A stretch of DNA of 38,114 nucleotides, taken from Desulfitibacter sp. BRH_c19. Lineage in GTDB: Bacteria; Bacillota; DSM-16504; Desulfitibacterales; Desulfitibacteraceae. The stretch spans positions 1 through 38,114 of the forward strand of contig LOER01000013.1 of NCBI GenBank assembly GCA_001515945.1, read 5' to 3'. Both the position numbers and the translations under genes were made by a program. Below, in pieces: positions 1-19,211 of the stretch. The stretch's first letter is position 1; every line of letters starts with the position of its first letter. The notes beneath the pieces were generated by a model. That model was given only the letters and a program-made list of their open reading frames with translations, did not search any database and had not been told where the DNA came from.

Positions 1-868
1 ATATAACTGGTAGCAATAAATCTGTAGCAATATTTGCAAGAACAGCTCCTTCAGCTGGACCAGCATAACCACCTATATAGGAGAAACCGCCTGCTCTTAT
101 GTTGTGGCCACAGTTTATTCCCATAACAATCCTATGGAAGTTACTCATAGATGCTTTTAATTCCACCGGGCACAATGACATTGTATTATTTCCTTCACCA
201 GGGAAAAATGCTGCTCCACCAAGATGACCATAATGTGTCACTGCACCAGCAATTCCTGTATGGCCAATTCCAGGCCTTTCGGCTCTATATGTGGCTTGTC
301 TTCTAAGTTCTGCTTCATATCTGCCCATTAATGTTTCATAAGGTGTTCCAGATCTAATTTTTTTGCCGTATACTGTTGCTAATGTAGGTCCATGTAAAAC
401 GTCTACTAACTTAGGATATTTAATCAGGCCTTCTGTAATTGGTACATATAATTCTTCAGAAACCACAATTCCTAGGGATGCACATACAATTGGCTCCACA
501 GTAGATTCGGGTCTCCTAGGTCTCATAACAACTTGGTCTTTCCCACGTCCAAACTTTATTTCTTCAGGGTATTCTCGTAGTGTTTCCTGGAGTTCCTGTT
601 CAGTTATTTTGATAATACGTTCTGTATCTGTGCAAAGCAAACCCATTTCAAGAGCTAATTCGTAACCTGCTTTAAAAAAGCGGTCTGCAAGCTCATCGTC
701 ACAGTTTATTGGGTTTTCCATATCAAGAGTTTTTTCTAATCCATGTTCTTTTAGTTTAGCCTTAATTGTCCTAGGTATAACCTTAGTATCCCATTCTTTA
801 ACTGTGCAAACAGGACCTGAATAAGCTTTATCTAGGCTATTCATAATTTTGTTAATTCTAACTGACAT
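1..868 (-). CDS. MtmB-family corrinoid methyltransferase without pyrrolysine (3' part missing)
   Basis: The frame opens at an ATG preceded by AGAGGGGGAAGG and stays open for 289 codons to the window edge, so about 170 residues of the usual ~458 are missing. It matches the monomethylamine methyltransferase MtmB as I recall it: N-terminal CTDTERIIK, a conserved ERPGIGH segment near residues 197-203 and GGYAGPAEGA near 266-275. MtmB passes a methyl group from methylamine to a corrinoid protein and uses pyrrolysine (UAG) at residue 202 in RPGMGV-Pyl-G. Here the aligned stretch reads RPGIGH-T-G, with Thr204 coded by ACA, and no in-frame UAG is seen. The substrate is therefore probably not handled by the pyrrolysine mechanism and may not be monomethylamine. 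The gene lies 64 bp after the corrinoid protein gene and is probably co-transcribed with it. Family sure; substrate unknown. Confidence 0.85.
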   Translation of the reverse strand, partial: MSVRINKIMNSLDKAYSGPVCTVKEWDTKVIPRTIKAKLKEHGLEKTLDMENPINCDDELADRFFKAGYELALEMGLLCTDTERIIKITEQELQETLREYPEEIKFGRGKDQVVMRPRRPESTVEPIVCASLGIVVSEELYVPITEGLIKYPKLVDVLHGPTLATVYGKKIRSGTPYETLMGRYEAELRRQATYRAERPGIGHTGIAGAVTHYGHLGGAAFFPGEGNNTMSLCPVELKASMSNFHRIVMGINCGHNIRAGGFSYIGGYAGPAEGAVLANIATDLLLPVI

Positions 869-932: not shown

Positions 933-1625
933 TTATGCTTTGCCAAGGTCTACTGCTTCTATTTCTTGCCCAGGTGCTTTACTAGATGCCATTATTTTTT
1001 TACAAAGTTCTACTGCATCAGTTGCATTTCTACCATATCCATCTGCTCCAATTTTTTCTGCCCAATCTGGTGTTACTGGCCCACCACCAACAACGCAATA
1101 ATATTTATCACGTAGCTTTGCATCTTTTAAATAGGTAATAATATCTTCCTGGTATGGCATGGAAGTTGTTAATAATGTAGAAGACGCAATAATTGATGCT
1201 CCAACTTCTTCAGCCTTATTTACAAAGTCCTTAGGATCTACATCTACCCCTAAGTCATATACTTCAAATCCATTTACAGAAAGCAAGGCAGACACTACAT
1301 TTTTACCAATATCATGTAGATCACCCTTGACCTGCCCAATCACTACCTTGCCCATCCTTTCGGAGGCAGCTTCATCTCCAAGTGCCTCTAATACTAGCTT
1401 CAGAATTTCCGTCATTGAATCACCAGCTAGGATTAATTCTGGCAAGTAAGCAGTTCCTTCACTAAATCTTTCACTAACAAGCTTTAACCCTTTGGTTCCA
1501 CCTTTTTCCATGATTTCTAATGGAGGTATCCCAGCATCTAAGCCTTCTTTTACAATACTGACAGCATCATCCACTTCACCTTCAGCTATGGCATTACTTA
1601 ATCTCTCGAACAACTGATCCTTCAT
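933..1625 (-). CDS. Methyltransferase cognate corrinoid protein (MtmC/MtbC/MttC type)
   Basis: This 230-residue cytoplasmic protein carries the methyl group on cobalt between a substrate methyltransferase and a second methyltransferase. Residues 1-88 are the helical cap (B12-binding 2) domain. Residues 92-215 are the Rossmann B12 domain with the base-off signature D102-L-H104-D-I-G107, where His104 is the lower cobalt ligand, then SSTLLTTSM and VVGGGPVTPDWAEKIGADGY. The length is normal for the family. The ATG follows AAGGAGGAATAAGTAT. It is the first gene before the MtmB-like gene, so that protein is the obvious methyl donor enzyme. No activator (RamA) or methyl-acceptor methyltransferase (MtbA) gene is in the window; they may lie beyond the left edge. 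Confidence 0.93.
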   Translation of the reverse strand: MKDQLFERLSNAIAEGEVDDAVSIVKEGLDAGIPPLEIMEKGGTKGLKLVSERFSEGTAYLPELILAGDSMTEILKLVLEALGDEAASERMGKVVIGQVKGDLHDIGKNVVSALLSVNGFEVYDLGVDVDPKDFVNKAEEVGASIIASSTLLTTSMPYQEDIITYLKDAKLRDKYYCVVGGGPVTPDWAEKIGADGYGRNATDAVELCKKIMASSKAPGQEIEAVDLGKA

Positions 1626-3055: not shown

Positions 3056-3175
3056 ATTTTTATCCACAATATTCCATCCGGGTTAAGACCCCCACTTCTA
3101 TAAGTGGGCTCTAAATCAGGTGGAGTAGAGTCCCCATCTGATTTCTTGATGTTTAGTTTTGGCTGAACGAGTTCA
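3056..3175 (-). repeat. Multi-hairpin intergenic repeat, copy 1 (possible TnpB/IS605 right-end relic)
   Basis: This 120-bp element also occurs at 10741-10901 in the same orientation. Read on the minus strand it begins TGAACTCGTTCA, where the TGA is also the stop codon of the upstream permease. It continues with a weak GTTCAGC/ACTAAAC dyad, a stem AATCAGATGG ... CCACCTGATT, a stem CCCACTT-ATAG-AAGTGGG, and ends near GGATAAAAAT. The frame just after the permease stop reads ELVQPKLNIKKSDGDSTPPD, which has the flavour of a TnpB C-terminus. That link is from memory of such ends and is not proven. Confidence 0.6.
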
Positions 3176-4105
3176 TCTTCCTTCTCGGTCATAAGGTATG
3201 GTTAATGCCTTTGGCATTAAATTCTTTGCTTTTTCAGATTTGTAAGTTATAAAAGTTAAGACTACAATTGTAAAAATATACGGAAGCATTCTTACGAAAA
3301 AAGATGGCATCTCTATACCAATTGCTTGCAACCTAAATCCCAGAACATCCACCCCTCCAAATATTAATGCGCCAATCCAAGCTCTAGCCGGGTTCCAGGT
3401 AGCAAAGATGACCAGCACAATAGCAATCCAACCCCTGCCAGCTGTCATGTTTTCTGCCCAGGCTGGTGCATAAGCTAAAGACAAATAAGCACCTGCAAGT
3501 CCCGCGAAAGCTCCCCCAATGCAAATGTATAAGTATCTTATACGAAATACATTTAAACCTACCGAGTCAGCAGCGCTTGGATTTTCTCCCACCGATCTTA
3601 ATTCTAAACCAGCTCTAGAACGGTAAATTATAAACCAACATATCGGTACTAAAAGATATGCAATATATACTAGGACATCATGATTAAAAAAAACATGCCC
3701 AAAATATGGTATTTCGGAAAGAAAAGGAATTGGGACTTTTTTATAGGATATAGGAGCTGCCATTCCAATCACTTGTTTTCCCAAAAATCCACTTAACCCA
3801 GTTCCAAATATAGTGAGAACCAATCCGGTAACTACTTGATTTGCCTGCAAAGTAACCACTAAAAAGGCAAATACAAGTCCTAACAAAAGCCCGGCAAATA
3901 TTGCTACTAAGGTGCCTAGCATTAAGCTCTGAGTGTTAACCACAACTATGAATCCTGTTGCAGCCCCTACAAGCATCATTCCTTCAACACCTAAGTTCAT
4001 TACACCTGATCTCTCAGCAAATATTTCCCCAAGTGCAGCGTATAAAATAGGAGTTGCCGATATTATAGCAGCGTGAAAAATGGCAACAAGTAAAATAGAA
4101 TCCAT
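3173..4105 (-). CDS. ABC transporter permease, BMP/nucleoside type (YufQ/NupQ-like)
   Basis: This 310-residue polytopic protein belongs to the BPD_transp_2 (branched-chain amino acid/ribose) permease class. It opens with AIISATPILYAALGEIFAERSGVMNLGVEGMMLVGA, the family's hallmark first two helices. The EELR-like cytoplasmic loop is SRAGLELRSVGENPSAADSVG around residues 165-185, the contact to the ATPase. About eight to ten membrane helices are visible. The start lies 2 bp after the upstream permease stop, so translation is coupled. Its stop codon is the first base triplet of repeat copy 1. Confidence 0.92.
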   Translation of the reverse strand: MDSILLVAIFHAAIISATPILYAALGEIFAERSGVMNLGVEGMMLVGAATGFIVVVNTQSLMLGTLVAIFAGLLLGLVFAFLVVTLQANQVVTGLVLTIFGTGLSGFLGKQVIGMAAPISYKKVPIPFLSEIPYFGHVFFNHDVLVYIAYLLVPICWFIIYRSRAGLELRSVGENPSAADSVGLNVFRIRYLYICIGGAFAGLAGAYLSLAYAPAWAENMTAGRGWIAIVLVIFATWNPARAWIGALIFGGVDVLGFRLQAIGIEMPSFFVRMLPYIFTIVVLTFITYKSEKAKNLMPKALTIPYDREGR

Positions 4106-4107
4106 TA

Positions 4108-5199
4108 TTAATTACGACCCCCTCTCCCCAGCTTAATGCGATACCTTGTAAACATTTCTCCTCCTAGCACGAAAAATAATATAGCTCCCTGCAACATAGA
4201 AACCATTACGGCTGGCAACCCAACAATTTGTAAAGCATATCCTCCATTTAACAGTCCACCAAAAAATATTGCTACTAAAATTATTACAAAAGGATTAAGC
4301 CTGCTGAGCCATGCTACAATAATTGCAGTATAACCATAGCCGGGAGAGATATTATATTGTAGCCTTCCAATAATTCCTGATACTTCTGCCATTCCTGCAA
4401 TCCCTGCTATTCCGCCACTTATTAACATTACTAAAACTATATTTTTCTTTATACTCATTCCTGCATAAGATGCTACCTTTTGAGATTCACCTATAACCCC
4501 TATTTGGTACCCCCATGTTGTTCTTTTAAAAATAATGTATAGGACAACTGCAATTATTATCGCAAAGGTTATACCAGCGTGTATTCTAGTTCCTGGTAGA
4601 GTAGGTAATAAAGCATATTCTTCAAATCCCTTTGTGAATGGCATAAACCCATTCGGATCCTTCCACGGGCCATAAACTAAATACCCAACCCATAAAATAG
4701 CTACATAATTTAGCATTAGAGTGGTTATAGTCTCATTTACTCCCACCAGGGCCTTAAGAATTCCAGGTATTAGGCCCCATAAGGCCCCACCAATAAAGCC
4801 TGCGATAACCATACAGGTTAACATAACAGGTGCCGGTAACTGTGGAAAAAATAAACCTACTCCCCCGGCCATAAACGCACCCATATATAGCTGTCCTTCT
4901 GCCCCAATATTCCATAAAGACATTTTAAAGGCAAGAGATACTGCTAATCCTGTTAACATTAGAGGAATAGCCTTTACCATGGTTTCTGAGAAGTTGTAGA
5001 ATGATCCAAAAGATCCTGTAAACATCAACATATAAATCTTCATTGGGCTATACCCCGTAGCCCACAAAAATATTGCACCAAATAATAATGCCAAGGCAAT
5101 GGAGATAAGGGGAATTAGTAAAAAACTAACTTTGGAGACCTTAGCCCGCTTCTCTACACTAATGAAATTCGATAAATTTACCTTTTCTTTTACTAACAC
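4108..5199 (-). CDS. ABC transporter permease, BMP/nucleoside type (YufP/NupP-like)
   Basis: This 363-residue permease pairs with the following one as a heterodimeric membrane channel. Visible marks are the first helix near residues 24-45, KAIPLMLTGLAVSLAFKMSLWNIGAEGQLYMGAF, LVGVNETITTLMLNYVAILWVGYLVYGPWKD and the ATPase-contact loop GYQIGVIGESQKVASYAGMS. A longer frame starts at 5217, but the GTG at 5199 is chosen because GGGGAGGGGAG lies just before it; this overlaps the end of the ATPase gene by 7 bp, which suggests translational coupling. Confidence 0.92.
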   Translation of the reverse strand: MLVKEKVNLSNFISVEKRAKVSKVSFLLIPLISIALALLFGAIFLWATGYSPMKIYMLMFTGSFGSFYNFSETMVKAIPLMLTGLAVSLAFKMSLWNIGAEGQLYMGAFMAGGVGLFFPQLPAPVMLTCMVIAGFIGGALWGLIPGILKALVGVNETITTLMLNYVAILWVGYLVYGPWKDPNGFMPFTKGFEEYALLPTLPGTRIHAGITFAIIIAVVLYIIFKRTTWGYQIGVIGESQKVASYAGMSIKKNIVLVMLISGGIAGIAGMAEVSGIIGRLQYNISPGYGYTAIIVAWLSRLNPFVIILVAIFFGGLLNGGYALQIVGLPAVMVSMLQGAILFFVLGGEMFTRYRIKLGRGGRN

Positions 5200-6707
5200 G
5201 CTCTCCCCTCCCCACACATCATTAGACCAATATCATCAATAGTAGCTTCATTTGGTTTAACTACCCCCATTATTTTACCTTCATACATAACAGCAATACG
5301 GTCGGACAAACAAAATATTTCGTCCAAATCTTCAGATATTAATAAAACTGCTGTTCCTTCCGACCTTTGGCTTAATAGTATTTTATGAATGGCTTGGGTT
5401 GCACCAATATCCAATCCACGAGATGGATAAGCTGCTACAATTAATCTAGGCCGTTTTGAGATTTCTCTTGCTAATAATAATTTTTGCTGGTTACCCCCAG
5501 ACATTAATTTTATAGGAGAATAAATTCCTGCTGTTTTAATGTCAAAGTCTTTTACTATTTCTGTTGAATAGTTTGCAAGATATTCTAAGTGTAAAAAACC
5601 TTTATTGCTAAACTGAGCTTCGTTAAAGCACTTCAATATAAGATTTTGTGTAACAGTTAAATTACCTATTAACCCTGTGCCCATTCTGTCCTCTGGAATT
5701 AGAGATACACCAGAATCTATTATTTTCCTAGGTGCTGCATTGGTCAAATCTTTGTCATCTATTGTAATTATTCCTGAGATTACTGTTCTTAACCCTGCTA
5801 TTACTTCTGTAAGCTCCCTTTGTCCATTTCCTGCAACTCCGGCAATTCCTATAATTTCTCCACCGTAAACATCTAACGAAAAATCTTCGAGAGCTTTCAC
5901 CTTTTTATCATTTAAAGCAGTTATATTCTGTATGCTTAAGACTTTTGGGCCTATCTCTTTATCATCTTTATCATATGTCAGGCACACTTCTCGGCCTACC
6001 ATGAGATTGGATAATTGTTGCTTAGAGGTTTGAGTCTTCATTAGTGTTGCAATAGATTTTCCTTGTCTTAATACCGTTATCCGATCCGCAACATTCATCA
6101 CTTCATTAAGTTTATGGGTAATTACAATAACTGCCTTGCCTTCCTTTGCCATTTTACGCAGAGTTATGAACAATTCCTCTACTTCCTGCGGAGTTAAAAC
6201 TGCAGTAGGTTCGTCTAGAATTAATACTTCTACTTTTCGATATAACATTTTTAAGATTTCGACCCTCTGCTGCTCACCCACAGATAGTTGCCATATCTCA
6301 GATCTGGGATCGACCTTTAATCCATAATTAGCTGTAAATTGTTCTATCTCATTATGGAGTTTCTCTAAATCATAAAAACGCTGTATATGCTTCAACCCTA
6401 AAATAATATTTTCCGTAGCCGTTAAACAGTCAACTAGCTTAAAGTGTTGATGGACCATACCTATTCCAGCTTTTATTGAATCCTTCGGGGAATTAAACAC
6501 TACTTGTTTATCATTAATAACTATGGTTCCATCCTCTGCCTTGTATAAACCCGAAAGTATACTCATCAAAGTACTTTTTCCTGCACCATTTTCACCAAGT
6601 AATGCATGTACTTCTCCCCTATATATTTCAAGGTTTACATTCTCATTAGCTACTACCCCCGGAAACTTTTTTGTAATATTATGCATGTTTAATAAGGGGT
6701 TAGTCAT
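5193..6707 (-). CDS. ABC transporter ATPase with two nucleotide-binding domains (YufO/NupO-like)
   Basis: The 504-residue protein has two tandem ABC domains and energises the two permeases. The first has Walker A GENGAGKST (about residues 39-47), signature LSVGEQQR and Walker B VLILDEPTAVLT. The second has a degenerate Walker A GVAGNGQRE, signature MSGGNQQKLLLAREI and a degenerate Walker B RLIVAAYPSRGLD. That asymmetry is standard for the sugar/nucleoside (RbsA/YufO) class. ATG follows AAGGAGGTATTAAAA, 44 bp after the hydroxylase 2Fe-2S gene, so it continues the same operon. Confidence 0.95.
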   Translation of the reverse strand: MTNPLLNMHNITKKFPGVVANENVNLEIYRGEVHALLGENGAGKSTLMSILSGLYKAEDGTIVINDKQVVFNSPKDSIKAGIGMVHQHFKLVDCLTATENIILGLKHIQRFYDLEKLHNEIEQFTANYGLKVDPRSEIWQLSVGEQQRVEILKMLYRKVEVLILDEPTAVLTPQEVEELFITLRKMAKEGKAVIVITHKLNEVMNVADRITVLRQGKSIATLMKTQTSKQQLSNLMVGREVCLTYDKDDKEIGPKVLSIQNITALNDKKVKALEDFSLDVYGGEIIGIAGVAGNGQRELTEVIAGLRTVISGIITIDDKDLTNAAPRKIIDSGVSLIPEDRMGTGLIGNLTVTQNLILKCFNEAQFSNKGFLHLEYLANYSTEIVKDFDIKTAGIYSPIKLMSGGNQQKLLLAREISKRPRLIVAAYPSRGLDIGATQAIHKILLSQRSEGTAVLLISEDLDEIFCLSDRIAVMYEGKIMGVVKPNEATIDDIGLMMCGEGRAC

Positions 6708-6751: not shown

Positions 6752-7234
6752 TTATTTGTTGTTATGCGCTAATCTAGCCGAGGCTTTTTTGACTCCATCA
6801 ATAATTTGATGATACCCTGTACATCTACACAAGTTACCTGCCATTGCCTCCTTAATTTCTTCCTCCGTGACGTTATCTTTCTTAAGCAACAATGAATGTG
6901 CAGTCATCAAAAAGCCTGGAGTACAAAAGCCACATTGTACGGCACCCGCTTCTATGAAGCTTTCCTGCAAAATAGATAGCTTACCGTCTTTTGCTAATCC
7001 TTCAATTGTAGTTATATCTTTTCCGTCTGCCCAAACAGCTAAATAAACACATGAATCTACTGGTTCTCCATCTATTAAAACTGTACATGCCCCACACTCA
7101 CCAACCTCACAGCCCTTTTTGGTACCTGTCAATAACAACTTATTTCTAAGAACTTCTAACAGGGATTCTCTGACATCAATTTCTATATTTAGTGGCTCCC
7201 CATTTACAACTAAGGACAATGTTCTTTTTGTCAA
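6752..7234 (-). CDS. Molybdenum hydroxylase, 2Fe-2S subunit (XdhC/CoxS-like)
   Basis: The small subunit carries two [2Fe-2S] clusters and passes electrons from the Mo centre to FAD. The plant-type cluster ligands are Cys42, Cys47, Cys50 (CEVGECGAC) and Cys62; the helical-domain cluster has Cys101 and Cys104 (CGFCTPG) plus Cys136 and Cys138 (CRC). All eight cysteines are present and the 160-residue length is normal. It is third in the MoCo-FAD-2Fe-2S order, 6 bp after the FAD gene. The final AHNNK tail is unremarkable. Confidence 0.95.
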   Translation of the reverse strand: MTKRTLSLVVNGEPLNIEIDVRESLLEVLRNKLLLTGTKKGCEVGECGACTVLIDGEPVDSCVYLAVWADGKDITTIEGLAKDGKLSILQESFIEAGAVQCGFCTPGFLMTAHSLLLKKDNVTEEEIKEAMAGNLCRCTGYHQIIDGVKKASARLAHNNK

Positions 7235-7240
7235 TTTACC

Positions 7241-8113
7241 CTACCCCCTTGCTTGTTCATAAGCTACCCTTAATGCTCTTGGGACCAATTCTTCAACAAG
7301 TGCCTGCCGAAATTCTTTAGTAGCTCTCCAAGATGTCCTTGGATTTGCTTCTTTTAAAGCTGCTTCACCTATCTCTTTTAGCAGATTATTTGAAAGTGTT
7401 TTATTCCTAGATATTTTTTCCGCTTCTACACACCTAATTGGTGTAGGTGCTGCTGTTCCTAAGGCAATTCTAGAATATTTTATGGTAGTACCATCATCAT
7501 TTAGTGCACAGGTAACAGCACACCCAAGGGTAGAAATGTCCATAGCTTTTCTCCTGCTAAACTTAATATAATGACCTCCAAAATACCTATCTAGTGGACG
7601 GATAATAATGGATGTAAGTATCTCGTCAGGCCGTTTGCTCGTTTTATATGGCCCAAGATAAAAATCATTTATTGAAATGATTCTGATACCATTCAAGCTT
7701 GCAAATTCTAACTGCCCATTTAAGGCCAGCAAACTAGGAGCACTATCAGCTGATGGGGCACCATTGCAAATGTTGCCCCCAATTGTTGCAACATTTCTAA
7801 TCTGCGGTCCTGCTAAAGATTTTGCCGCTACAGCGAGTATAGGAATTTCTTCATTTATTATTGTGTTTCCCATTATCTGACTAAATGTAGCCATGGAACC
7901 TATCCGAATACTTCCGTCCTTTTGTTTATAAATGGTTTTCAAATCATTTATTTTACTTAGGCTTATTAATGTAGTATCTGCTTGCCTACTTTCTCGCATT
8001 TTTATTAACAAATCTGTTCCGCCAGCTATTAATACAGGATTGGTTTCCTTATGAGCCAATTCTAAAGCATCCGCTACTCTCAAAGGCTCAAGGTACCTCG
8101 AAAAATTGTACAT
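7241..8113 (-). CDS. Molybdenum hydroxylase, FAD subunit (XdhB/CoxM-like)
   Basis: This 290-residue subunit holds FAD and hands electrons to the final acceptor. The N-terminal PCMH-type FAD motif is IAGGTDLLIKMR near residues 29-40, and the second is IRNVATIGGNICNGAPSADS near 105-124; the CO_deh_flav_C domain follows. Its ATG overlaps the stop of the MoCo subunit by one base (TAATG) behind AAGGTGGTG, a sign of coupled translation. The electron acceptor cannot be told from sequence. Confidence 0.95.
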   Translation of the reverse strand: MYNFSRYLEPLRVADALELAHKETNPVLIAGGTDLLIKMRESRQADTTLISLSKINDLKTIYKQKDGSIRIGSMATFSQIMGNTIINEEIPILAVAAKSLAGPQIRNVATIGGNICNGAPSADSAPSLLALNGQLEFASLNGIRIISINDFYLGPYKTSKRPDEILTSIIIRPLDRYFGGHYIKFSRRKAMDISTLGCAVTCALNDDGTTIKYSRIALGTAAPTPIRCVEAEKISRNKTLSNNLLKEIGEAALKEANPRTSWRATKEFRQALVEELVPRALRVAYEQARG

Positions 8114-10401
8114 TATTTCACCACCTTAAATTCAATAGAGGTTTGGTGTTTAATGCCCTGCAAGACCCTTTGAGGAGTCATTGGAAGCTGATTTAGTTCC
8201 AACCCCGTGGCATTAAGAATTGCATTTCTAATGGCAGGAGCCGTAGGTAAAACAGGCGGTTCCCCCAAGCTTTTCTCACCATAAGCTGAAGAAGGTTCCT
8301 CAGTTTCCACAAATATCACCTCAATGGGCGGTACATCTTTTATAGTTGGTATCTTATAGTCTAGTAGATTATTATTATAAACCTTGCCGGTCATTGTATT
8401 AACTTGCATTTCCTCATATAACCCATAGGCTACCCCCATTAATACACCGCCATATACCTGACCTTCTGCCAAGAGGGGGTTAATAATTTTACCAGAATCA
8501 TGAATTGCCCAGATTTTATTAATTTTCACAGTTCCTGTTGTCGTATCTACTTCAACCTCAACAAAATTAGCCCCAAAGGAATATGCGTTGGTTTTAGGGG
8601 AATTGCTTGCTTCTCCGTAAATTGTTTTTGAGTCTCCTATTTTATAAAAAGCCTCCATGGCAACCTCTGAGATAGGACCCAATTGCTTATTGCTATCAGT
8701 ATAAATATACCCTTTCAATATTTTTAACTTCTGTGTTGAAAACCCATATTTCTTACTAGCTATTTCCAATACTTGCTTCCTACAATGAGAAGCCGCTTTT
8801 TTAACAGCTGACGCCCCCACGTATGTCTGTCTAGATGCATATGCACCCAGATCAAACGGACAAGTATCTGTATCAACGGCGATCACCTTTATGGTATCTA
8901 TGCTTATTCCTAATTCTTCTGCTACTATCTGTGCAAAAATGGTATCAGTTCCTTGACCTATATCTGCAGCACCAATAGACAAAACAGCAGAACCATCCTC
9001 ATTCATTTTTACTACTGCCCCAGACGTTTCACTCAGTTCCGGAGCAGTACATGACGCATAAGCAAAACATGCCATACCTATACCCTTTTTGATATTCCCA
9101 TAACTATTAGTTGATAAATAGTCAGTTCTTTTCTTATCCCAACCCGATTTTACTTTTCCCAGTTCTATAATATCTTTCAGACCAAAACTTTCTATTTTGA
9201 CATGACTAACAGGGTTTGTATAACCTAAGCCGCATAGATTTTTTAGTCTAAAAACAATGGGATCTAGCCTCATTTCTTTGGCTATGTTGTCAATATGGGA
9301 TTCTACTGCATATGTTAGTTGAGGAATACCATAACCCCTCATAGCACTTGCTATAGGAAGGTTAGTATAATAAGTTGTTCCTTCAAACTTAAGGTTTGAC
9401 GCAGGATACAGTACTGGAAAAACACTACATATATTTAATAAAACCGAATGTCCATGGGCACTATAAGCACCAGTATTCGAAGTAGCCTGAAGTTGCCTAG
9501 CTAGTATTTTACCTTCCTTATTTAATCCTGTTTTTATTTTGAAGGACATAGAATGTCTGGTTCGCGTAGACACCATGTCATCTTCCCGCGTGATTTCTAG
9601 CTTAACTGGCTTACCTGTTTTAATGGCAAGAAATGCGTTTAATGCTTCCTGACACATATCCTGTTTACTTCCAAACCCACCACCCACATGTGGTTTTACT
9701 ATTCTAACTTTTCCTATTGGCATGCCCAACGCTTTAGACAATAAGCGTCTAACAGTAAATGGACTTTGAGTCGAAGAGTATACTGTCAATCGCTCATTTG
9801 ACTCAGGAATGGCAATGGAAACATGGGTTTCAATAGGACAATGTTGGACAATCTGGGTTTTAAATTCATCTTCGAAAACATAGTCTGATTTATCAAAAGC
9901 AAGATTAACATTGCCGTATTCATAAGAATTTTCTCCTGCAATGTTATCTGTTTGTGCATGAACTTCAACATTTTTCATTATTGCTTCTTCAACTGATAAT
10001 ATTGGTTCTAGTTCTTTATACTCCACATTAATCAATGATACAGCTTCCTTTGCTATATCCTCTGATACTGCTACAATTGCTGCAACAGGGTCACCTATAT
10101 AACGCACCTTTTCATTTAATATCAGACTATCTAAAGGTGTATCATCGGGATAGGGGTGTCCAGTGGAGGTAAATTTATTTTTTGGTACATCCTTATGAGT
10201 AACTATCGCTTTAACCCCTGGCAATTTTAATGCTTTACTTGAATCAACTTTAATAATCTCAGCATGGGCAACTGTACTATAAAGTACCTGGGCATAAAGC
10301 ATATTTGGAAAATATAGGTCTCCTGTGAATTTTGCTTCTCCGGTTACTTTTGCTGCCCCATCTAACCTGGAGATGCTTTTTCCAACAGATGTATAAGTCA
10401 T
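8113..10401 (-). CDS. Molybdenum hydroxylase, molybdopterin subunit (XdhA/CoxL-like)
   Basis: This 762-residue subunit binds Mo-pterin-cytosine dinucleotide and hydroxylates the substrate with water-derived oxygen. Visible marks are the N-terminal a/b hammerhead domain (KVTGEAKFTGDLYFPNMLYAQVLYS), HVGGGFGSK near 241-249, AMRGYG near 359-364, GAADIGQGTDT near 470-480 and the C-terminal catalytic glutamate region GEKSLGEPPVLPTAPAI. The CO-dehydrogenase loop VAYRCSFR is absent, so this is not a Cu-Mo CO dehydrogenase. A GTG at 10404 is possible, but the ATG at 10401 is better spaced from AAGGGGG. As first gene of an operon with a BMP importer, a purine or similar heterocycle is the best substrate guess. 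Confidence 0.93.
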   Translation of the reverse strand: MTYTSVGKSISRLDGAAKVTGEAKFTGDLYFPNMLYAQVLYSTVAHAEIIKVDSSKALKLPGVKAIVTHKDVPKNKFTSTGHPYPDDTPLDSLILNEKVRYIGDPVAAIVAVSEDIAKEAVSLINVEYKELEPILSVEEAIMKNVEVHAQTDNIAGENSYEYGNVNLAFDKSDYVFEDEFKTQIVQHCPIETHVSIAIPESNERLTVYSSTQSPFTVRRLLSKALGMPIGKVRIVKPHVGGGFGSKQDMCQEALNAFLAIKTGKPVKLEITREDDMVSTRTRHSMSFKIKTGLNKEGKILARQLQATSNTGAYSAHGHSVLLNICSVFPVLYPASNLKFEGTTYYTNLPIASAMRGYGIPQLTYAVESHIDNIAKEMRLDPIVFRLKNLCGLGYTNPVSHVKIESFGLKDIIELGKVKSGWDKKRTDYLSTNSYGNIKKGIGMACFAYASCTAPELSETSGAVVKMNEDGSAVLSIGAADIGQGTDTIFAQIVAEELGISIDTIKVIAVDTDTCPFDLGAYASRQTYVGASAVKKAASHCRKQVLEIASKKYGFSTQKLKILKGYIYTDSNKQLGPISEVAMEAFYKIGDSKTIYGEASNSPKTNAYSFGANFVEVEVDTTTGTVKINKIWAIHDSGKIINPLLAEGQVYGGVLMGVAYGLYEEMQVNTMTGKVYNNNLLDYKIPTIKDVPPIEVIFVETEEPSSAYGEKSLGEPPVLPTAPAIRNAILNATGLELNQLPMTPQRVLQGIKHQTSIEFKVVK

Positions 10402-10404
10402 CAC

Positions 10405-10917: not shown

Positions 10918-11769
10918 TTAACTGCTTAGAATCTCTCCCACATCAAAGACTAACCCCTTAATAGCTTCCTTCTTATAGGGCATTGATGCTCTGGCACCTA
11001 TCTTTTCTTCCACAACCTTTGAAAGAAGTTCGGCCATTTCCTCAATTAGAGAGTTATTTAATTTCTTGCCTATCAGAGCTTTTTCGGATTCATATGGCCT
11101 ATAAGCAGTAGTTCCAACTGCTCCTAAACCAATACGAATTTCCTGGATAACATCACCCTCTAATTTAACAATTACTGCAAGGTTTATCCTTGCAATTGCA
11201 AGTGCTTTTCTTCTGCCTAGCTTTGCAAAACCACTTTTATAGCCTTCACCATACTTTGGAATTGTTATTTCTGAAAGATATTCCCCTGACTGTAAGGTAG
11301 TCTTTTCTACCCCAACTAGAAAATCTTCAATGTTTTCTGTTCTAGAGCCATTTGCTCCCTGAATTTTTAAGCTTGCTCCTAGGGCAACCAAAGCAGGAAG
11401 GCTGTCTGCTGCTGGTGAGGCATTTGCAACATTTCCTCCTATAGTAGCAACATTTCTAATTTGAACAGAACCAACTCCAGCGGCTGCCTGAGCTAAACAT
11501 AGTGCATATTTTCTAATTACTGGACTTTCTTCAATTGTAGTAAAGTTAGTAACTGCACCAATTTTGATTTCATTTGCTTCTTCTTTTATATACTGAAGCT
11601 CCTGTAATCTTGACAGATCTATTACAAGTTCAGGTGATATTTTCTTTTCCCTAATGTGGATTACAAGGTCTGTCCCCCCAGCTAAGAACTTACAATTAGC
11701 AGGGGCTATTTTTATACGTTCCATAAGATCAGAAACCTTTTCGGGCGAATAAACTTCAAAATTTGCCAT
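10918..11769 (-). CDS. Molybdenum hydroxylase, FAD subunit, second operon (CoxM-like)
   Basis: The 283-residue protein has the family motifs FLAGGTDLVIHIREKK near residues 29-44 and IRNVATIGGNVANASPAADS near 104-123, then the C-terminal flavoprotein domain with GFAKLGRRKALAIARINLAV. The ATG follows AAGGAGGAGAGAC and lies 15 bp after the MoCo subunit stop. It is the last gene of the operon, followed by repeat copy 2 and a terminator. Gene order here (2Fe-2S, MoCo, FAD) differs from the first operon (MoCo, FAD, 2Fe-2S), so the two sets are not a simple recent duplication. Confidence 0.94.
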   Translation of the reverse strand: MANFEVYSPEKVSDLMERIKIAPANCKFLAGGTDLVIHIREKKISPELVIDLSRLQELQYIKEEANEIKIGAVTNFTTIEESPVIRKYALCLAQAAAGVGSVQIRNVATIGGNVANASPAADSLPALVALGASLKIQGANGSRTENIEDFLVGVEKTTLQSGEYLSEITIPKYGEGYKSGFAKLGRRKALAIARINLAVIVKLEGDVIQEIRIGLGAVGTTAYRPYESEKALIGKKLNNSLIEEMAELLSKVVEEKIGARASMPYKKEAIKGLVFDVGEILSS

Positions 11770-11784
11770 GTCTCTCCTCCTTAT

Positions 11785-14001
11785 TTAATGGTTTATTTTT
11801 AAGGCATCCTGTACCCTTTCTAGCGTTGCAGGAATGGACTCAAGTCTTGCACCTATAGCATCATGAATTGCATTAGTAATGGCTGGGGAAATTGGAATAC
11901 ATACTCCCTCAGCAACACCCTTTGCACCAAAAGGGCCCGTTGTTTCAGTAACCTCTACTGGTATTGTTTCAATAACAGGTACATCTAAGGATGTTGGTAT
12001 TAAATACTTATTAAAGTTAAGGGTGTCCGTCTTTCCTTCATTTAACTCGATGTCTTCAAGTAAGGCATATCCCATACCCATTACAGTTCCGCCTTCTGAT
12101 TGACCCTCTAGGCCTTGAATGTTTATGACCTTACCAGCATCTAAAGCACATACAGACTTTATCAGTTCCACTAGCCCTGTATGCATATCAACTTCCACTA
12201 GGGCTAAGTGTGTTGTTGCACTGTAAACAAGGTGTGGTAATCCGTAAGCTCCAGGGATTCCCTTATCAGGTATTGGCACTTCAAAGTGTCCATGAACAGA
12301 AAATTCCTTTTTGTGTTTTAGGGCCTGATCAACCATTTCTTCAAGTAAATATTCTGCTTTCGAACTGTTAATGCCAGCACTAAATTCAGATAGTTGTTTT
12401 TTCATCTTTTCGGCAGCAAGTATTATGGCATTTCCTCCAGCATAGATTGATCTTGATGCTGTAGATGTTCTGGAGTCTGGTGTTGCATGACTATGCCCTG
12501 TAACTACATCTATCCTTTCTACAGGAAATCCCAGAGCTTCAGCTGCAATCTGACCGTAAGCAATTGAATTGCCTTGCCCTATCTCTGGGCAACCTACCGC
12601 GACTCTAATATTTCCGTTTTCTAATACTGTCATGTCGCAAGCCGCATAGTCAGGTAACCCTCTTCCATAACCCACTCCCTTAATTGCAGTAGCTAATCCT
12701 ATTCCTCTTTTTTTCCAGGGTTTAGTGGGGGTATTTTTGTATTTATCTTTATCTATCCACAGCTCACTATTTTTAACTGCTTCAAGTGTCTGTATTGTCC
12801 CCATGGCAGAGGTCAAAGTATGTCCTAAAGCACCCTCATCACCTTGACGAACCCCATTTTTTAAACGGATTTCCATGACATCCATGCCAATTTCCCTGGC
12901 GATAATATCCATCTGAGTTTCCATGGCAAAATTGGACTGATTAGCTCCAAATCCCCTCATGGGATTACTAATCATATTATTTGTATAAATACATAAGCCT
13001 TCTACTTTCAAGTTAGGCATTCTATAGGCGCTACAGCAATTCTCTACTGCTACATTTAAGATTGAACGTCCTAGGTTTGCATAAGCACCCGTATCGGCAT
13101 AAATTTTAACCTCATTGGCAATCAGCAGTCCATCTTTGGTAGCTCCTGTTTTCATATAAATCTTCATTGGATGCTTTTTACCACTAACTAATACAGATTC
13201 TTCTCTGCTATATACAATTTTTACAGGTCTTTTTGACTTCAAAGCAAGGATGGATAACTGACCCTGAATAGTAAGATCATCCTTACCACCAAATGCTCCC
13301 CCGACAGGGTTACTTGTTACCATAATTTTTTCTTGGGGCATATCTAAAATTCGTGATAATTGAAGTTGATCCCTGTGGGAATACTGACTTCCACAGAGCA
13401 TGTGTAGATTCTCTTTATCATCAAAAAAAGCCACACCACTTTCAGTTTCTAAATATGCATGCATTTGCCGTGCAGTTTGATAAACCTTTTCTACAACCAC
13501 ATCAGCATTCTTAAAGGCTTCTCCTAAATCTCCCTTTTCAACCTTTGTGATAAGGTGGATATTGCCCTCTTCATGAACCTTGGGGGCTTCCTCTTTTGCC
13601 CCTTCTTCCACATCAAATACTCCCGGTAATAACTCATATTCTACTTCAATCAATTCTAATGCCTTATCAGCAATTTCTTTAGTTTCTGCTGCCACTCCAG
13701 CTACAAAATCGCCTATAAATCTTACCTTATCTTTACAAAATACAGGTTGATCTTGCACAATAGCACCATAAGCATTTAATCCGGGCACATCCTCATGTGT
13801 AACTACTGCATGTACGCCTTCAACCTCCTTTGCTTTGGCGGTATTAATACTTTTAATTAAAGCATGGGCATAGGGACTTCTAAGGATTTTACCCCATAGC
13901 ATTCCGGGTAATTTAAGGTCTGACATGTATCTGGTTTCACCAGTTACTTTGCCAAAAGCATCCGGCCTCGCAACAGGTTTACCTATCCATTGATGACTCA
14001 T
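11785..14001 (-). CDS. Molybdenum hydroxylase, molybdopterin subunit, second operon
   Basis: The 738-residue catalytic subunit shows KVTGETRYMSDLKLPGMLWGKILRSPYAHA in the hammerhead domain, NPVGGAFGGKDD near 236-247, NPMRGFGANQ, VGCPEIGQGNS and the C-terminal GAKGVAEGVCIPISPAI, where the glutamate after GVA corresponds to the base that activates the Mo-OH. The CoxL CO-oxidation loop is absent. AAGGAGG just before the ATG overlaps the end of the 2Fe-2S gene, so the two are coupled. Substrate unknown; it is distant from the other two MoCo subunits in the window. Confidence 0.93.
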   Translation of the reverse strand: MSHQWIGKPVARPDAFGKVTGETRYMSDLKLPGMLWGKILRSPYAHALIKSINTAKAKEVEGVHAVVTHEDVPGLNAYGAIVQDQPVFCKDKVRFIGDFVAGVAAETKEIADKALELIEVEYELLPGVFDVEEGAKEEAPKVHEEGNIHLITKVEKGDLGEAFKNADVVVEKVYQTARQMHAYLETESGVAFFDDKENLHMLCGSQYSHRDQLQLSRILDMPQEKIMVTSNPVGGAFGGKDDLTIQGQLSILALKSKRPVKIVYSREESVLVSGKKHPMKIYMKTGATKDGLLIANEVKIYADTGAYANLGRSILNVAVENCCSAYRMPNLKVEGLCIYTNNMISNPMRGFGANQSNFAMETQMDIIAREIGMDVMEIRLKNGVRQGDEGALGHTLTSAMGTIQTLEAVKNSELWIDKDKYKNTPTKPWKKRGIGLATAIKGVGYGRGLPDYAACDMTVLENGNIRVAVGCPEIGQGNSIAYGQIAAEALGFPVERIDVVTGHSHATPDSRTSTASRSIYAGGNAIILAAEKMKKQLSEFSAGINSSKAEYLLEEMVDQALKHKKEFSVHGHFEVPIPDKGIPGAYGLPHLVYSATTHLALVEVDMHTGLVELIKSVCALDAGKVINIQGLEGQSEGGTVMGMGYALLEDIELNEGKTDTLNFNKYLIPTSLDVPVIETIPVEVTETTGPFGAKGVAEGVCIPISPAITNAIHDAIGARLESIPATLERVQDALKINH

Positions 14002-14003
14002 TT

Positions 14004-14471
14004 TTATACCTCCTTGGAATTCTCAACTGCTGTTTGAATGGCTTTAACTATTTTTACATATCCTGTGCATCTACAAAGGTTACCAGATATGGCTTTTTTA
14101 ATTTCCATTTCCGTTGGATTGGAGTTTTTTAATAGAAGAGCTTTAGCAGACATAATCATACCAGGAGTGCAATAGCCACATTGAACAGCACCTTCTTTGA
14201 CAAAAGCATCCTGTAATGGATCAAGAGTCTTACCCTTAGCCAGGCCTTCTACGGTAATTATTTCTTTATCCTCACACTGCCCTACAAGTACAAGGCATGA
14301 ATTTACCGCTTTACCATCAATTAATACAGTACAGGCTCCACATTCTCCTGCACCGCAACCTTCTTTTGTTCCGGTCAAGTCAAGAGTTTCTCTTAAAAAG
14401 TCTAGCAATCTTATACTTGGATCAACATCTCTTTCTATTAATTCATTGTTAACTCTTAATTTTACTTTCAC
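14004..14471 (-). CDS. Molybdenum hydroxylase, 2Fe-2S subunit, second operon
   Basis: The 155-residue subunit has all cluster ligands: Cys39, Cys44, Cys47 and Cys59 for the plant-type cluster and Cys98, Cys101, Cys133, Cys135 for the helical-domain cluster (CGYCTPGM, NLCRCTGY). It starts with GTG behind AAGGGGGAATTATTA. The gene begins 36 bp after the fused hydroxylase gene and supplies the electron-transfer subunit for the MoCo and FAD proteins that follow it. Confidence 0.94.
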   Translation of the reverse strand: MKVKLRVNNELIERDVDPSIRLLDFLRETLDLTGTKEGCGAGECGACTVLIDGKAVNSCLVLVGQCEDKEIITVEGLAKGKTLDPLQDAFVKEGAVQCGYCTPGMIMSAKALLLKNSNPTEMEIKKAISGNLCRCTGYVKIVKAIQTAVENSKEV

Positions 14472-14507
14472 TAATAATTCCCCCTTAAAATGTACTAGGA
14501 CACACCC

Positions 14508-17333
14508 CTATTTAGAGCTATCTTTCTTGCCTGGGAATGTCCCCAATTTATGTCCTGCTAATATTTTTTCTTTTGTTGCAGGTAAATTTTCTACTCGTAC
14601 TCCTATTGCATCATAAATAGCACTAATTATTGCTGGTGCTGTTGAATTAATAGGTACTTCGCCCATTCCTTTTGCTCCAAATGGACCATCTGATTCCTCT
14701 TCAACAAGGATAGTTTCCATTTCTGGCATATGTGTTATCTTGGGAAGCTTAAGCTTTGCAAGGTTATCTGTGATCATTTTACCATCTACAAGCTTAAACT
14801 CTTCACTTAATCCATAACCAATCCCCATAACAATTGCTCCCTCTAGCTGACAGTGACAGTTTTGGGGATGGATTGCTTTACCTAAATCTTGGGCAGCTAT
14901 AACTTTAAGTACCTTTACTTCCCCAGACGACTCATCAACCTCCACTACGGCTGCCTGAGTGTTAAAACAATATGCAAAATGAATATTATACTTTTCCAAT
15001 GGCACCTTTGCCTGATGATCAGCCCTTTCTCTTAAGGAGTAAGTTGTAGGGGCAGTATATATATAATCAGCTTTTAAATCTACTTTGTTCTCCCATGACA
15101 TTTTTGCAAGATTTATATAGCTAATAAAATTATTTTCAACATTGGTATTAAATTTTCCTTTTTTCTTTAGGTGAATTCCTCCATGTATAAACTGATAGTC
15201 ACCTTCTTTTAATCCAATGACATCAAAAAACAGCCCTTGGATAACTTTTTTAAAATTGTTTGCTGCACCAATTACAGCATGCCCTGATATGTATGTCTGT
15301 CTTGATGCTGTAGTTACACCACCATCTATAGTTTGTGATGTATCATTGGATATTACTACAAAATCCTTAAAATGGATACCTGTAATCTCTGAAGCCATCT
15401 GGGTTAGGACAGTATCTGAACCCTGCCCTATATCGGTGGCTCCAACTTTCAGATAAACATTTCCATTTTTACTTATTTCAATACTTGCTCCTGCCCTATC
15501 TTTTTTCCCTGCGCCCAATCCTACATTTTTATAGGAACTGGCTATGCCAATACCTATCCTTTTACCGCTACCAGGTTCGGGGATCTTGTTTTTATATTCT
15601 TGCAAAGCCTTCTCGACTTTCTCAACGGTTTGTATATATCCAACATCGCTCTTTAGGACCTGCCCAGTAATGGTGGCTTTTCCTTCTTTTAGACCGTTTA
15701 TCTTTCTTATAGTAAATGGATCTATGCCTAGTACCCTGGCAACCTTATCCATCTGCTGTTCAGCCCCAAAGGCAACTTGAGTACTACCAAATCCCCTAAA
15801 TGCTCCCCCAGGTGAATGATTTGTATAAACCCCATAAGAATCTATCTTTACATTAGGAATATCATATGGTCCAGCTCCGACTACAGCGGAACGAAAAACA
15901 ACAGGTTGACTAAGGGATTCGTAAGCTCCAGCATCTGCGATAACTTTAAGTTCTATAGCCAATATTTTACCATCTAAGGTTGCGCCATGGCGGTAATGCA
16001 TCTTTTCCCAGTGGCGTTTTGTAGACATTATCATAGATTCTTGTCTTGTTAAAGTCATTTTTACAGGTCTTCCTGTAAGCATAGCACCTAATGCACAGTG
16101 GATTTGGACTGTACATTCTTCCTTCCCACCAAAGGCACCTCCTGCTGGTGTATAAACTACACGTACCTTTTCCTCGGTAATATCTAGGCATGATGAAATG
16201 GATTCTCTAAAAGCATGAGAACCTTGACTTGCTGTCATAACAACAACTGTTCCATCCTCTTCCATCTTTGCTACTGCTGACTCAGTCTCAAGATAGGCGT
16301 GTTCAACCATTGGGGTTGTATATATACCTTCAATGATAATGTCCGCCTTTGCAAAAGCATTATCAATATCACCCTTTCTTACCTTGACATGTTTCATCAC
16401 ATTACCATCTTCATGAATAAGTGGAGCATCGTCTTTCATTCCATCTTCTGGTGAAAATATGCCTTTCAAAGGCTCGTAGTCTACATTTATGTATTTTAAA
16501 GCTTCATCTGCTTGTTCCTCGTTTTCTGCAAGGACAAGGGCAACAGGATCACCCATATACCTTACAAGCTCTTCTGCTAGGACAGGCTGATGAGGATTTA
16601 ATAACCCAAAACCATTTCTACCTGGAATATCTTTGGCTGTCAAAACCTTTATAACCCCTGGCTGCCTTAACGCTTCAGTAGCATCAATGCTTTTTACTTG
16701 GGCAAAGGGGTGTGCGCTTAAAAGTAATTTCCCGTAAATCATCTTATCAAAATATACATCATCTGCAAAAATAGGTTTACCTGTCACCTTTTCATAAGCA
16801 TCCTTTTTAACTGGGGACTCTCCAATGCCTGTTTTTAACCTATCCTTATCAGGACTTTCAAAAGCTCCCCCCATCATGGCTGCCGCTTTTTTAATGGCTC
16901 GTATTATAGCGGCATATCCTGTACAGCGACAAATGTTAAACTTAAGTGCATCTTTAATGTCATCATCTGTTGGATTTTGATTTACATCTAGCAAAGCTTT
17001 TGCCGCCATCACCATGCCTGGAGTACAAAAACCACATTGAACTGCACCTTCCTCTATAAAAGTCTGCTGAATAGGATGCAATTTCCCATCTTTACTTAGG
17101 ATCTCAATTGTTTCAATAGATGCTCCATCTAGCTTTAAAATTTTTAGTAGGCAGGCTCTTTTTGCCTTCCCATCAACAATAACAGTACATGTACCACAAT
17201 GTCCCTGATTGCAACCATTCTTGGCTCCTAGCAATCCCAGATAATCTCTTAAATATTTTAAGAGGCTAATGTCTGCTGAGCCATCAATCGTGTATGCCTT
17301 TCCATTTATCTTAAATGAAATTGTCTTAACCAT
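14508..17333 (-). CDS. Fused 2Fe-2S/molybdopterin hydroxylase (aldehyde oxidoreductase-like layout)
   Basis: One 941-residue chain joins a 2Fe-2S subunit (residues 1-150) to a MoCo subunit (about 165-941), the layout of Desulfovibrio Mop-type aldehyde oxidoreductases and some purine/xanthine hydroxylases. Cluster ligands are Cys41, 46, 49, 61 and Cys100, 103, 135, 137. The Mo domain has TPAGGAFGGKEE, PGGAFRGFGSTQ, VGATDIGQGSDT and the catalytic region GAKGMGEVPINSTAPAI. GTG 17342 and ATG 17339 are possible starts, but GGGGTGAT is 8 bp from the ATG at 17333. It has no FAD domain; electrons may go to a ferredoxin/flavodoxin or to the FAD subunit encoded at 10918. AFRGFG is the usual xanthine-dehydrogenase-family form; substrate not determined. 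Confidence 0.93.
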   Translation of the reverse strand: MVKTISFKINGKAYTIDGSADISLLKYLRDYLGLLGAKNGCNQGHCGTCTVIVDGKAKRACLLKILKLDGASIETIEILSKDGKLHPIQQTFIEEGAVQCGFCTPGMVMAAKALLDVNQNPTDDDIKDALKFNICRCTGYAAIIRAIKKAAAMMGGAFESPDKDRLKTGIGESPVKKDAYEKVTGKPIFADDVYFDKMIYGKLLLSAHPFAQVKSIDATEALRQPGVIKVLTAKDIPGRNGFGLLNPHQPVLAEELVRYMGDPVALVLAENEEQADEALKYINVDYEPLKGIFSPEDGMKDDAPLIHEDGNVMKHVKVRKGDIDNAFAKADIIIEGIYTTPMVEHAYLETESAVAKMEEDGTVVVMTASQGSHAFRESISSCLDITEEKVRVVYTPAGGAFGGKEECTVQIHCALGAMLTGRPVKMTLTRQESMIMSTKRHWEKMHYRHGATLDGKILAIELKVIADAGAYESLSQPVVFRSAVVGAGPYDIPNVKIDSYGVYTNHSPGGAFRGFGSTQVAFGAEQQMDKVARVLGIDPFTIRKINGLKEGKATITGQVLKSDVGYIQTVEKVEKALQEYKNKIPEPGSGKRIGIGIASSYKNVGLGAGKKDRAGASIEISKNGNVYLKVGATDIGQGSDTVLTQMASEITGIHFKDFVVISNDTSQTIDGGVTTASRQTYISGHAVIGAANNFKKVIQGLFFDVIGLKEGDYQFIHGGIHLKKKGKFNTNVENNFISYINLAKMSWENKVDLKADYIYTAPTTYSLRERADHQAKVPLEKYNIHFAYCFNTQAAVVEVDESSGEVKVLKVIAAQDLGKAIHPQNCHCQLEGAIVMGIGYGLSEEFKLVDGKMITDNLAKLKLPKITHMPEMETILVEEESDGPFGAKGMGEVPINSTAPAIISAIYDAIGVRVENLPATKEKILAGHKLGTFPGKKDSSK

Positions 17334-17355
17334 TCCCATCACCCCACACTTTAAT

Positions 17356-19170: not shown

Positions 19171-19211
19171 TTGTCAATTTGTCAGTTTGTCAATTTGTCA
19201 AGCCTGACCCC
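19171..19211. repeat. REP-like tail repeat, copy a (overlaps 3' end of dsdA)
   Basis: The segment is a run of (A/G)TTTGTCA units ending in GTCAAGCCTGACCCC. The same tail occurs at 28391 and 29519. Read on the minus strand it supplies the last codons (Gly-Gln-Ala) and the TGA stop of the D-serine ammonia-lyase gene. Confidence 0.8.

Follow-up and report, generated by a model that had tools for sequence, protein, structure and literature searches.

The window analysed here, a stretch of 38,114 nucleotides from Desulfitibacter sp. BRH_c19, is contig C13 of a 3.85-Mb genome and begins within a gene that raises one question: what does an MtmB-type methyltransferase act on when it has no pyrrolysine (Pyl)? 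The sequence-only reading of the window had taken this left-edge gene to be an MtmB homologue with Thr204 (ACA, 259-257) at the Pyl position and with no UAG among its 289 visible codons. All three claims held, and the third could be extended to the whole gene of 467 amino acids. The two features concerned are as follows.

1..868, minus strand: Pyl-free MtmB homologue (group I, defined below); PF05369, E of 4e-41; 289 of 467 codons visible, remainder on contig C42
257..259, minus strand: codon 204, ACA (Thr), in the Pyl202 column of Methanosarcina barkeri MtmB; alignments to 1L2Q and to 70 homologues

The open reading frame (ORF) starts with the ATG at position 868 of the minus strand, preceded by the ribosome-binding site GGGGGAAGG, and is truncated by the contig end at position 1. 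In a Pfam scan, the protein matched PF05369 (MtmB) with 141.7 bits against a curated cut-off of 25; this was the sole family found, with no match to PF06253 (MttB superfamily), and NCBIfam assigned no family name. The alignment with M. barkeri MtmB (1L2Q/1NTH) begins near the N-terminus and places T204 opposite Pyl202, the local segments being RPGMGVXGPETS in M. barkeri and RPGIGHTGIAGA in the left-edge gene. The active-site motif RPGxG(V/H)-X-G proposed earlier was only partly confirmed, since the residue before position 202 is not restricted to V or H but is variable (H, C, N or K in group I). Over its first 420 bases, the window is exactly identical to the end of contig C42, whereas the nearest paralogue in the same genome (L001) differs at 4 of these positions (416/420 identical), so that the gene can be completed across the two contigs to 467 codons, none of which is an in-frame UAG. 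That the ORF leaves the contig could have indicated a split gene or a pseudogene; this was rejected, as the exact overlap completes an open gene.

The host genome encodes three intact MtmB homologues, namely the left-edge gene, L001 (95% identity to the completed gene) and L002 (41%). None of the three contains an in-frame stop, and none uses pyrrolysine. PylS is nevertheless encoded in the genome (352 bits against a cut-off of 178), and the MttB family gave 40 matches, several of them partial, about 10 of which contain an in-frame TAG. The absence of UAG from the MtmB genes hence does not result from a missing Pyl system. The host as a whole appears acetogen-like, and its complement of methylamine-type methyltransferases is unusually large.

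We collected homologues from named and whole genomes and placed them in a single alignment and tree with M. barkeri MtmB. The left-edge protein falls in a group of 24 sequences (group I, 65-95% identity) from Clostridia including Oscillospiraceae, spirochaetes and one member of the Coriobacteriales; 23 of these sequences carry Thr in the Pyl column, and one carries Val. Group II comprises 18 sequences with about 39-43% identity to the left-edge protein and has Met, Ala, Ser, Pro or Thr in this column, and about 22 more distant Pyl-free sequences carry many different residues there. In one related genome (G062), two fragmented MtmB homologues, probably decaying, were observed on contig C1 at about 1186395-1187742 and 998592-999966 (L011, L016, L018 and L019).

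The surroundings of Pyl are lost together with Pyl itself. Glu229, Glu259, Gln333 and Tyr335, which contact Pyl in the crystal structures of MtmB, are invariant in all eight Pyl enzymes and are replaced in group I by Met/Gln, Gly, Ile and Asn, respectively; Glu259 is retained in 11 of the 18 group II sequences. What is shown here for these four residues is only their strict conservation alongside Pyl. Furthermore, Asp302, Lys334, Asn337, Glu338 and Arg370 (L001 numbering) are among the residues conserved in group I and not in the Pyl enzymes, and their columns sit at barrel strand ends. Structure modelling, which the sequence-only reading had suggested, was carried out with AlphaFold on full-length L001 (41 aligned sequences, mean pLDDT 95, pTM 0.94). 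The model has the full-length MtmB TIM-barrel fold (Z of 54 and 1.7 Å over 449 residues against 1NTH), with MttB and MtgB as the next structural matches at Z of about 24, and its Thr lies on the barrel strand at 203-205.

The earlier reading also held that the chemistry cannot be that of methylamine demethylation. This is well supported, by inference and not by assay, because Pyl and its conserved surroundings are gone despite the presence of PylS and of UAG-containing MttB genes. A Pyl-independent methylamine methyltransferase could be argued from the 28% identity and the shared fold with MtmB. However, the replacement of Pyl and of all four accompanying residues in a host able to make Pyl, which is unused here, and the different gene context of Pyl-MtmB (below) leave this reading with very little likelihood. 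It could also be supposed that the protein transfers no methyl groups and is a pseudo-MtmB, or that it serves as a sensor or regulatory paralogue, since the catalytic Pyl is absent and G062 carries frame-broken MtmB copies. Against this stand the full-length open genes, the 65-95% identity across distant genomes, the near-invariant Thr and a corrinoid partner gene at all 24 group I loci, and we regard this explanation too as highly improbable.

If not methylamine, the substrate must be sought in the gene context, which the sequence-only reading had not considered with respect to purines and which is now the main lead. The genes upstream of the left-edge gene in the window are listed below.

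933..1625, minus strand: cognate corrinoid protein, MtxC type, whose gene lies immediately upstream of that for MtmB; PF02310/PF02607; TIGR02370
1874..3067, minus strand: BMP-family substrate-binding lipoprotein; PF02608; 6pi5, E of 2e-89
3173..4105, minus strand: ABC permease of a BMP-type transporter; ORF with homologues in the operons of relatives
4108..5217, minus strand: ABC permease; PF02653
5193..6707, minus strand: ABC transporter ATPase; ORF, position conserved in relatives
6752..7234, minus strand: xanthine dehydrogenase 2Fe-2S subunit; tblastn family match
7241..8113, minus strand: xanthine dehydrogenase FAD subunit; tblastn family match
8113..10404, minus strand: xanthine dehydrogenase molybdenum subunit XdhA; scores above the two NCBI equivalog cut-offs
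10918..17342, minus strand: further xanthine dehydrogenase-family molybdenum hydroxylases (FAD, Mo, 2Fe-2S and fused Mo/2Fe-2S)

The neighbour had been read as a corrinoid protein, and this held: the product of 933-1625 is over the Pfam B12-binding cut-off, with a TIGR02370 score of 204 bits that is slightly below the cut-off of 215. XdhA exceeded its two equivalog cut-offs with 940 against 780 and 927 against 916 bits. The window contains three Mo subunits, including a 944-residue molybdenum hydroxylase fused to its own 2Fe-2S subunit (14508-17342), and a D-serine ammonia-lyase gene (19198-20547, over its curated cut-off) adjoins the purine cluster.

The closest solved relative of the binding protein is AtzT (6pi5), which has an affinity of 110 nM for guanine (PMC6834077). 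In AtzT the ring is stacked between two positions, and both are aromatic (Trp and Trp) in the window's binding protein; E165, N218 and N220, which hold guanine in AtzT, correspond to S, Y and D, and these three exchanges count against the purine reading. A kept sandwich with changed edge residues would possibly fit a related but modified ring, an inference from sequence alone.

On the C42 side, the completed gene is accompanied by genes for a PucR-family regulator, an MtgA-like methyltransferase, two MttB homologues and another xanthine dehydrogenase. The MtgA-like gene lies next to the completed gene (L021:6333-7184) and supplies the system with a second methyltransferase, inferred to act on tetrahydrofolate (THF); its homologue at locus L042 is over the NF005719 cut-off. 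Given the two MttB homologues and PucR, a further methylated substrate may be handled by the cluster. The neighbours of L001 encode xanthine dehydrogenase, an amidohydrolase, SsnA (over its cut-off), YgfK (partial) and an NCS1 permease. The amidohydrolase resembles 8-oxoguanine deaminase and scores 530 bits against a cut-off of 532, and 8-oxoguanine deaminase is the nearest match of the deaminases in the clusters. The group II paralogue L002 has a xanthine dehydrogenase gene on one side and a series of SsnA-like, UacX-type, YgeW-like and YgeY genes on the other, the UacX-type product being dihydroorotate/dihydropyrimidine dehydrogenase-like, and group II genes are embedded in urate-degradation genes in three genomes. 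Enzymes of the SsnA, UacX, YgeW and YgeY types belong to a reductive urate pathway described in 2025 (PMC12507026). No match to YgeX over the cut-off was found anywhere in the host genome, so that the full reductive urate gene set is lacking; without YgeX, urate breakdown in the host may be incomplete or proceed via another route. In the genome of strain DCMF ('Ca. Formimonas warabiya'), the group I gene has as neighbours a xanthine permease gene and an adenine deaminase gene whose products each exceed the respective cut-off. Across the clusters, the neighbours that pass curated cut-offs include XdhA, xanthine permease, adenine deaminase, SsnA, YgeY, PucR and the MtgA-like NF005719.

This context is reproducible. 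A corrinoid-protein gene is adjacent at 24 of 24 group I loci, and within 10 kb, where the contig allows, xanthine dehydrogenase occurs at 15 of 24 and an amidohydrolase at 16 of 24, together with PucR at eight, a BMP transporter at nine and an NCS2 purine permease at six. Purine-catabolism neighbours are present at every group I locus for which 12 kb or more of flank is available (17 of 17) and at none of the seven Pyl-MtmB loci. Given how densely xanthine dehydrogenase genes are spread over the genomes, chance alone would place one nearby at 1.3 of 24 loci, against the 15 observed (P of about 7e-15). All counts over whole genomes are based on family searches. Xanthine dehydrogenase is present in 53 of 101 related genomes and is so common that co-occurrence at the genome level is weak evidence; the adjacency is what counts. 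A control with MttB addresses the objection that these genomes are simply rich in methyltransferases. In 13 genomes, xanthine dehydrogenase was found within 10 kb of at least 19 of 25 MtmB homologues but of at least 3 of 60 MttB homologues (Fisher 5e-11), both counts being lower bounds. Two of the three MttB matches belong to the window's own cluster.

Two observations at other loci touch on this context. The 2.6-Mb genome of Clostridia bacterium CSMAG_109 (G117; loci L068-L076) gave 14 matches to the MtmB family, not all of full length, and 24 to the xanthine dehydrogenase family, and several of its Pyl-free MtmB genes of distant clades adjoin PucR regulators and BMP binding proteins; the purine link may possibly extend beyond groups I and II. 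At L060, L040, L041 and L049, group I MtmB is repeatedly accompanied by proteins of the URO-D family (MtaA/CmuA superfamily), CobW-like proteins and DUF1638 proteins, which may serve as the second methyltransferase or as cofactor-delivery parts where MtgA is absent.

The purine neighbours might be incidental if the enzyme, like MtqB, demethylated a quaternary amine such as tetramethylammonium or choline. MtqB is the one Pyl-free MtmB whose function has been demonstrated (PMC13044021), and the 40 MttB-family matches indicate a broad methylated-amine metabolism in the host. However, the purine context recurs in Clostridia, in Oscillospiraceae, in spirochaetes and in one genome of the Coriobacteriales, and the MttB genes of the same genomes show it far less strongly. 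In addition, the polar residues conserved in group I (Asp302, Lys334, Asn337, Glu338 and Arg370) differ from the Met/Cys/aromatic set reported for MtqB, and the recurrent neighbours include no recognised BCCT-type transporter. We consider this alternative unlikely. Another N-methyl heterocycle, such as trigonelline (N-methylnicotinate) or a creatinine/N-methylhydantoin derivative, is likewise not favoured. The xanthine dehydrogenase family includes nicotinate hydroxylases, amidohydrolases serve several ring-opening routes, and the NCS1 permeases of the clusters are not purine-specific by score; on the other hand, the purine-specific neighbours XdhA, xanthine permease, adenine deaminase, SsnA and YgeY all pass curated cut-offs and are accompanied by PucR regulators.

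Since genes for purine uptake, deamination and oxidation keep recurring beside this corrinoid methyltransferase, a methylated purine is its simplest substrate. We therefore lean, by a modest margin, towards the left-edge enzyme being an N-methylpurine:corrinoid methyltransferase that passes methyl groups on to THF under anaerobic conditions, with the substrate inferred from gene context and not from an assay. The enzyme would transfer a methyl group from a ring nitrogen of the purine to Co(I) of the adjacently encoded corrinoid protein; both the position of this methyl and the direction of transfer are inferred. Possible substrates are methylxanthines (caffeine-like), methylurates and methylated bases, for instance methylguanine. 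A deaminase gene is frequent in the clusters, which accords better with methylguanine or methyladenine than with caffeine, and we hold these two as likely as a methylxanthine. The MtgA-like methyl-corrinoid:THF methyltransferase of the C42 cluster would then form methyl-THF for the Wood-Ljungdahl pathway. An acetyl-CoA synthase is encoded in the host genome, so that methyl-THF would be usable there, and the freed purine would pass to the neighbouring deaminases and xanthine dehydrogenases. The N-H groups of purines have pKa values of about 7.5-10, and Pyl is inferred to be unnecessary because the leaving group would be a purine anion, as good as phenolate or a tertiary amine; aryl methyl ethers and quaternary amines likewise manage without activation of the methyl group by Pyl. 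A bulky purine would occupy the space of the Pyl-methylammonium adduct in MtmB.

Of the 21 genomes with a group I gene, 15 also have group II, and in six the two are no more than 20 kb apart. The two groups differ in the residue at the Pyl position, and together this suggests two methyl positions needing two enzymes, or else two substrates. A bolder reading, which in our judgement is as apt to fail as to hold, is that pairs of Pyl-free MtmBs of different regiospecificity demethylate purines anaerobically and pass the methyl groups via corrinoid proteins to the Wood-Ljungdahl pathway. The same joint claim would include methylxanthines (caffeine, theobromine), methylurates and methylated nucleobases as substrates and the freed purine entering xanthine dehydrogenase and urate-reducing routes.

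Comparison with known systems shows partial likenesses only. M. barkeri MtmB shares the full-length fold, PF05369 and a corrinoid partner gene at 28% identity, but it has Pyl202, Glu229/Glu259/Gln333/Tyr335 and a methylamine context instead of Thr and a purine context. MtqB is likewise a Pyl-free MtmB-family enzyme with a cognate corrinoid protein (PMC13044021), but it comes from a methanogen, acts on quaternary amines and has the reported Met/Cys/aromatic site. The Pyl-free MttB superfamily (MtgB, MtcB, MtyB) offers a parallel for the loss of Pyl with a change of substrate and for methyl transfer via a corrinoid protein to THF, whereas its members have about 10% identity and Z of 24, use quaternary amines and show no xanthine dehydrogenase link in the same genomes. 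The aerobic caffeine N-demethylases NdmABC use separate enzymes for each position, as proposed here for methylxanthine N-demethylation; however, they are Rieske oxygenases, unrelated proteins that oxidise the methyl group to formaldehyde with oxygen. The reductive urate cluster (PMC12507026) resembles the SsnA-, UacX-, YgeW- and YgeY-like genes beside the group II paralogue, but no corrinoid methyltransferase has been described for it and YgeX is absent from the host genome.

That Pyl-free MtmBs are little described, as the sequence-only reading stated, is fair: the first function (MtqB; tetramethylammonium and choline) was published in March 2026, with a tree that covers 1,061 MtmBs, both with and without Pyl, and in which those outside the highlighted clades are listed as of unknown function (PMC13044021). 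In a 2022 proteomics study of strain DCMF, a Pyl-free MtmB was the most increased protein in dichloromethane-grown cells, and a role beyond methylamine was suggested (PMC9768040). By locus-tag interpolation between UAG-containing MttB genes, this protein (Ga0180325_111810) maps to about 1.84-1.87 Mb, where the group I gene of the purine-type locus L042 (about 1.87 Mb) adjoins a more distant paralogue, and it could be either of the two. In the literature searched, which left out most subscription papers, we found neither corrinoid-dependent demethylation of caffeine, methylxanthine or methylguanine nor a link between MtmB and purines. Pyl-free MtmB is thus already recognised as a kind; the purine context is new here, and a purine substrate class would be new if confirmed.

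The reproducible purine context gives a large MtmB subfamily a concrete and testable substrate class. If the proposal is true, purines would be N-demethylated without oxygen, and Pyl-free MtmB would gain a further class of substrates, much larger than the first. The oxygen-independent breakdown of methylated purines in guts, digesters and sediments would then be explained, and purine breakdown would be linked to acetogenesis. Pyl-free MtmBs, like the MttBs, would then have spread over activated N-methyl compounds once Pyl had become dispensable.
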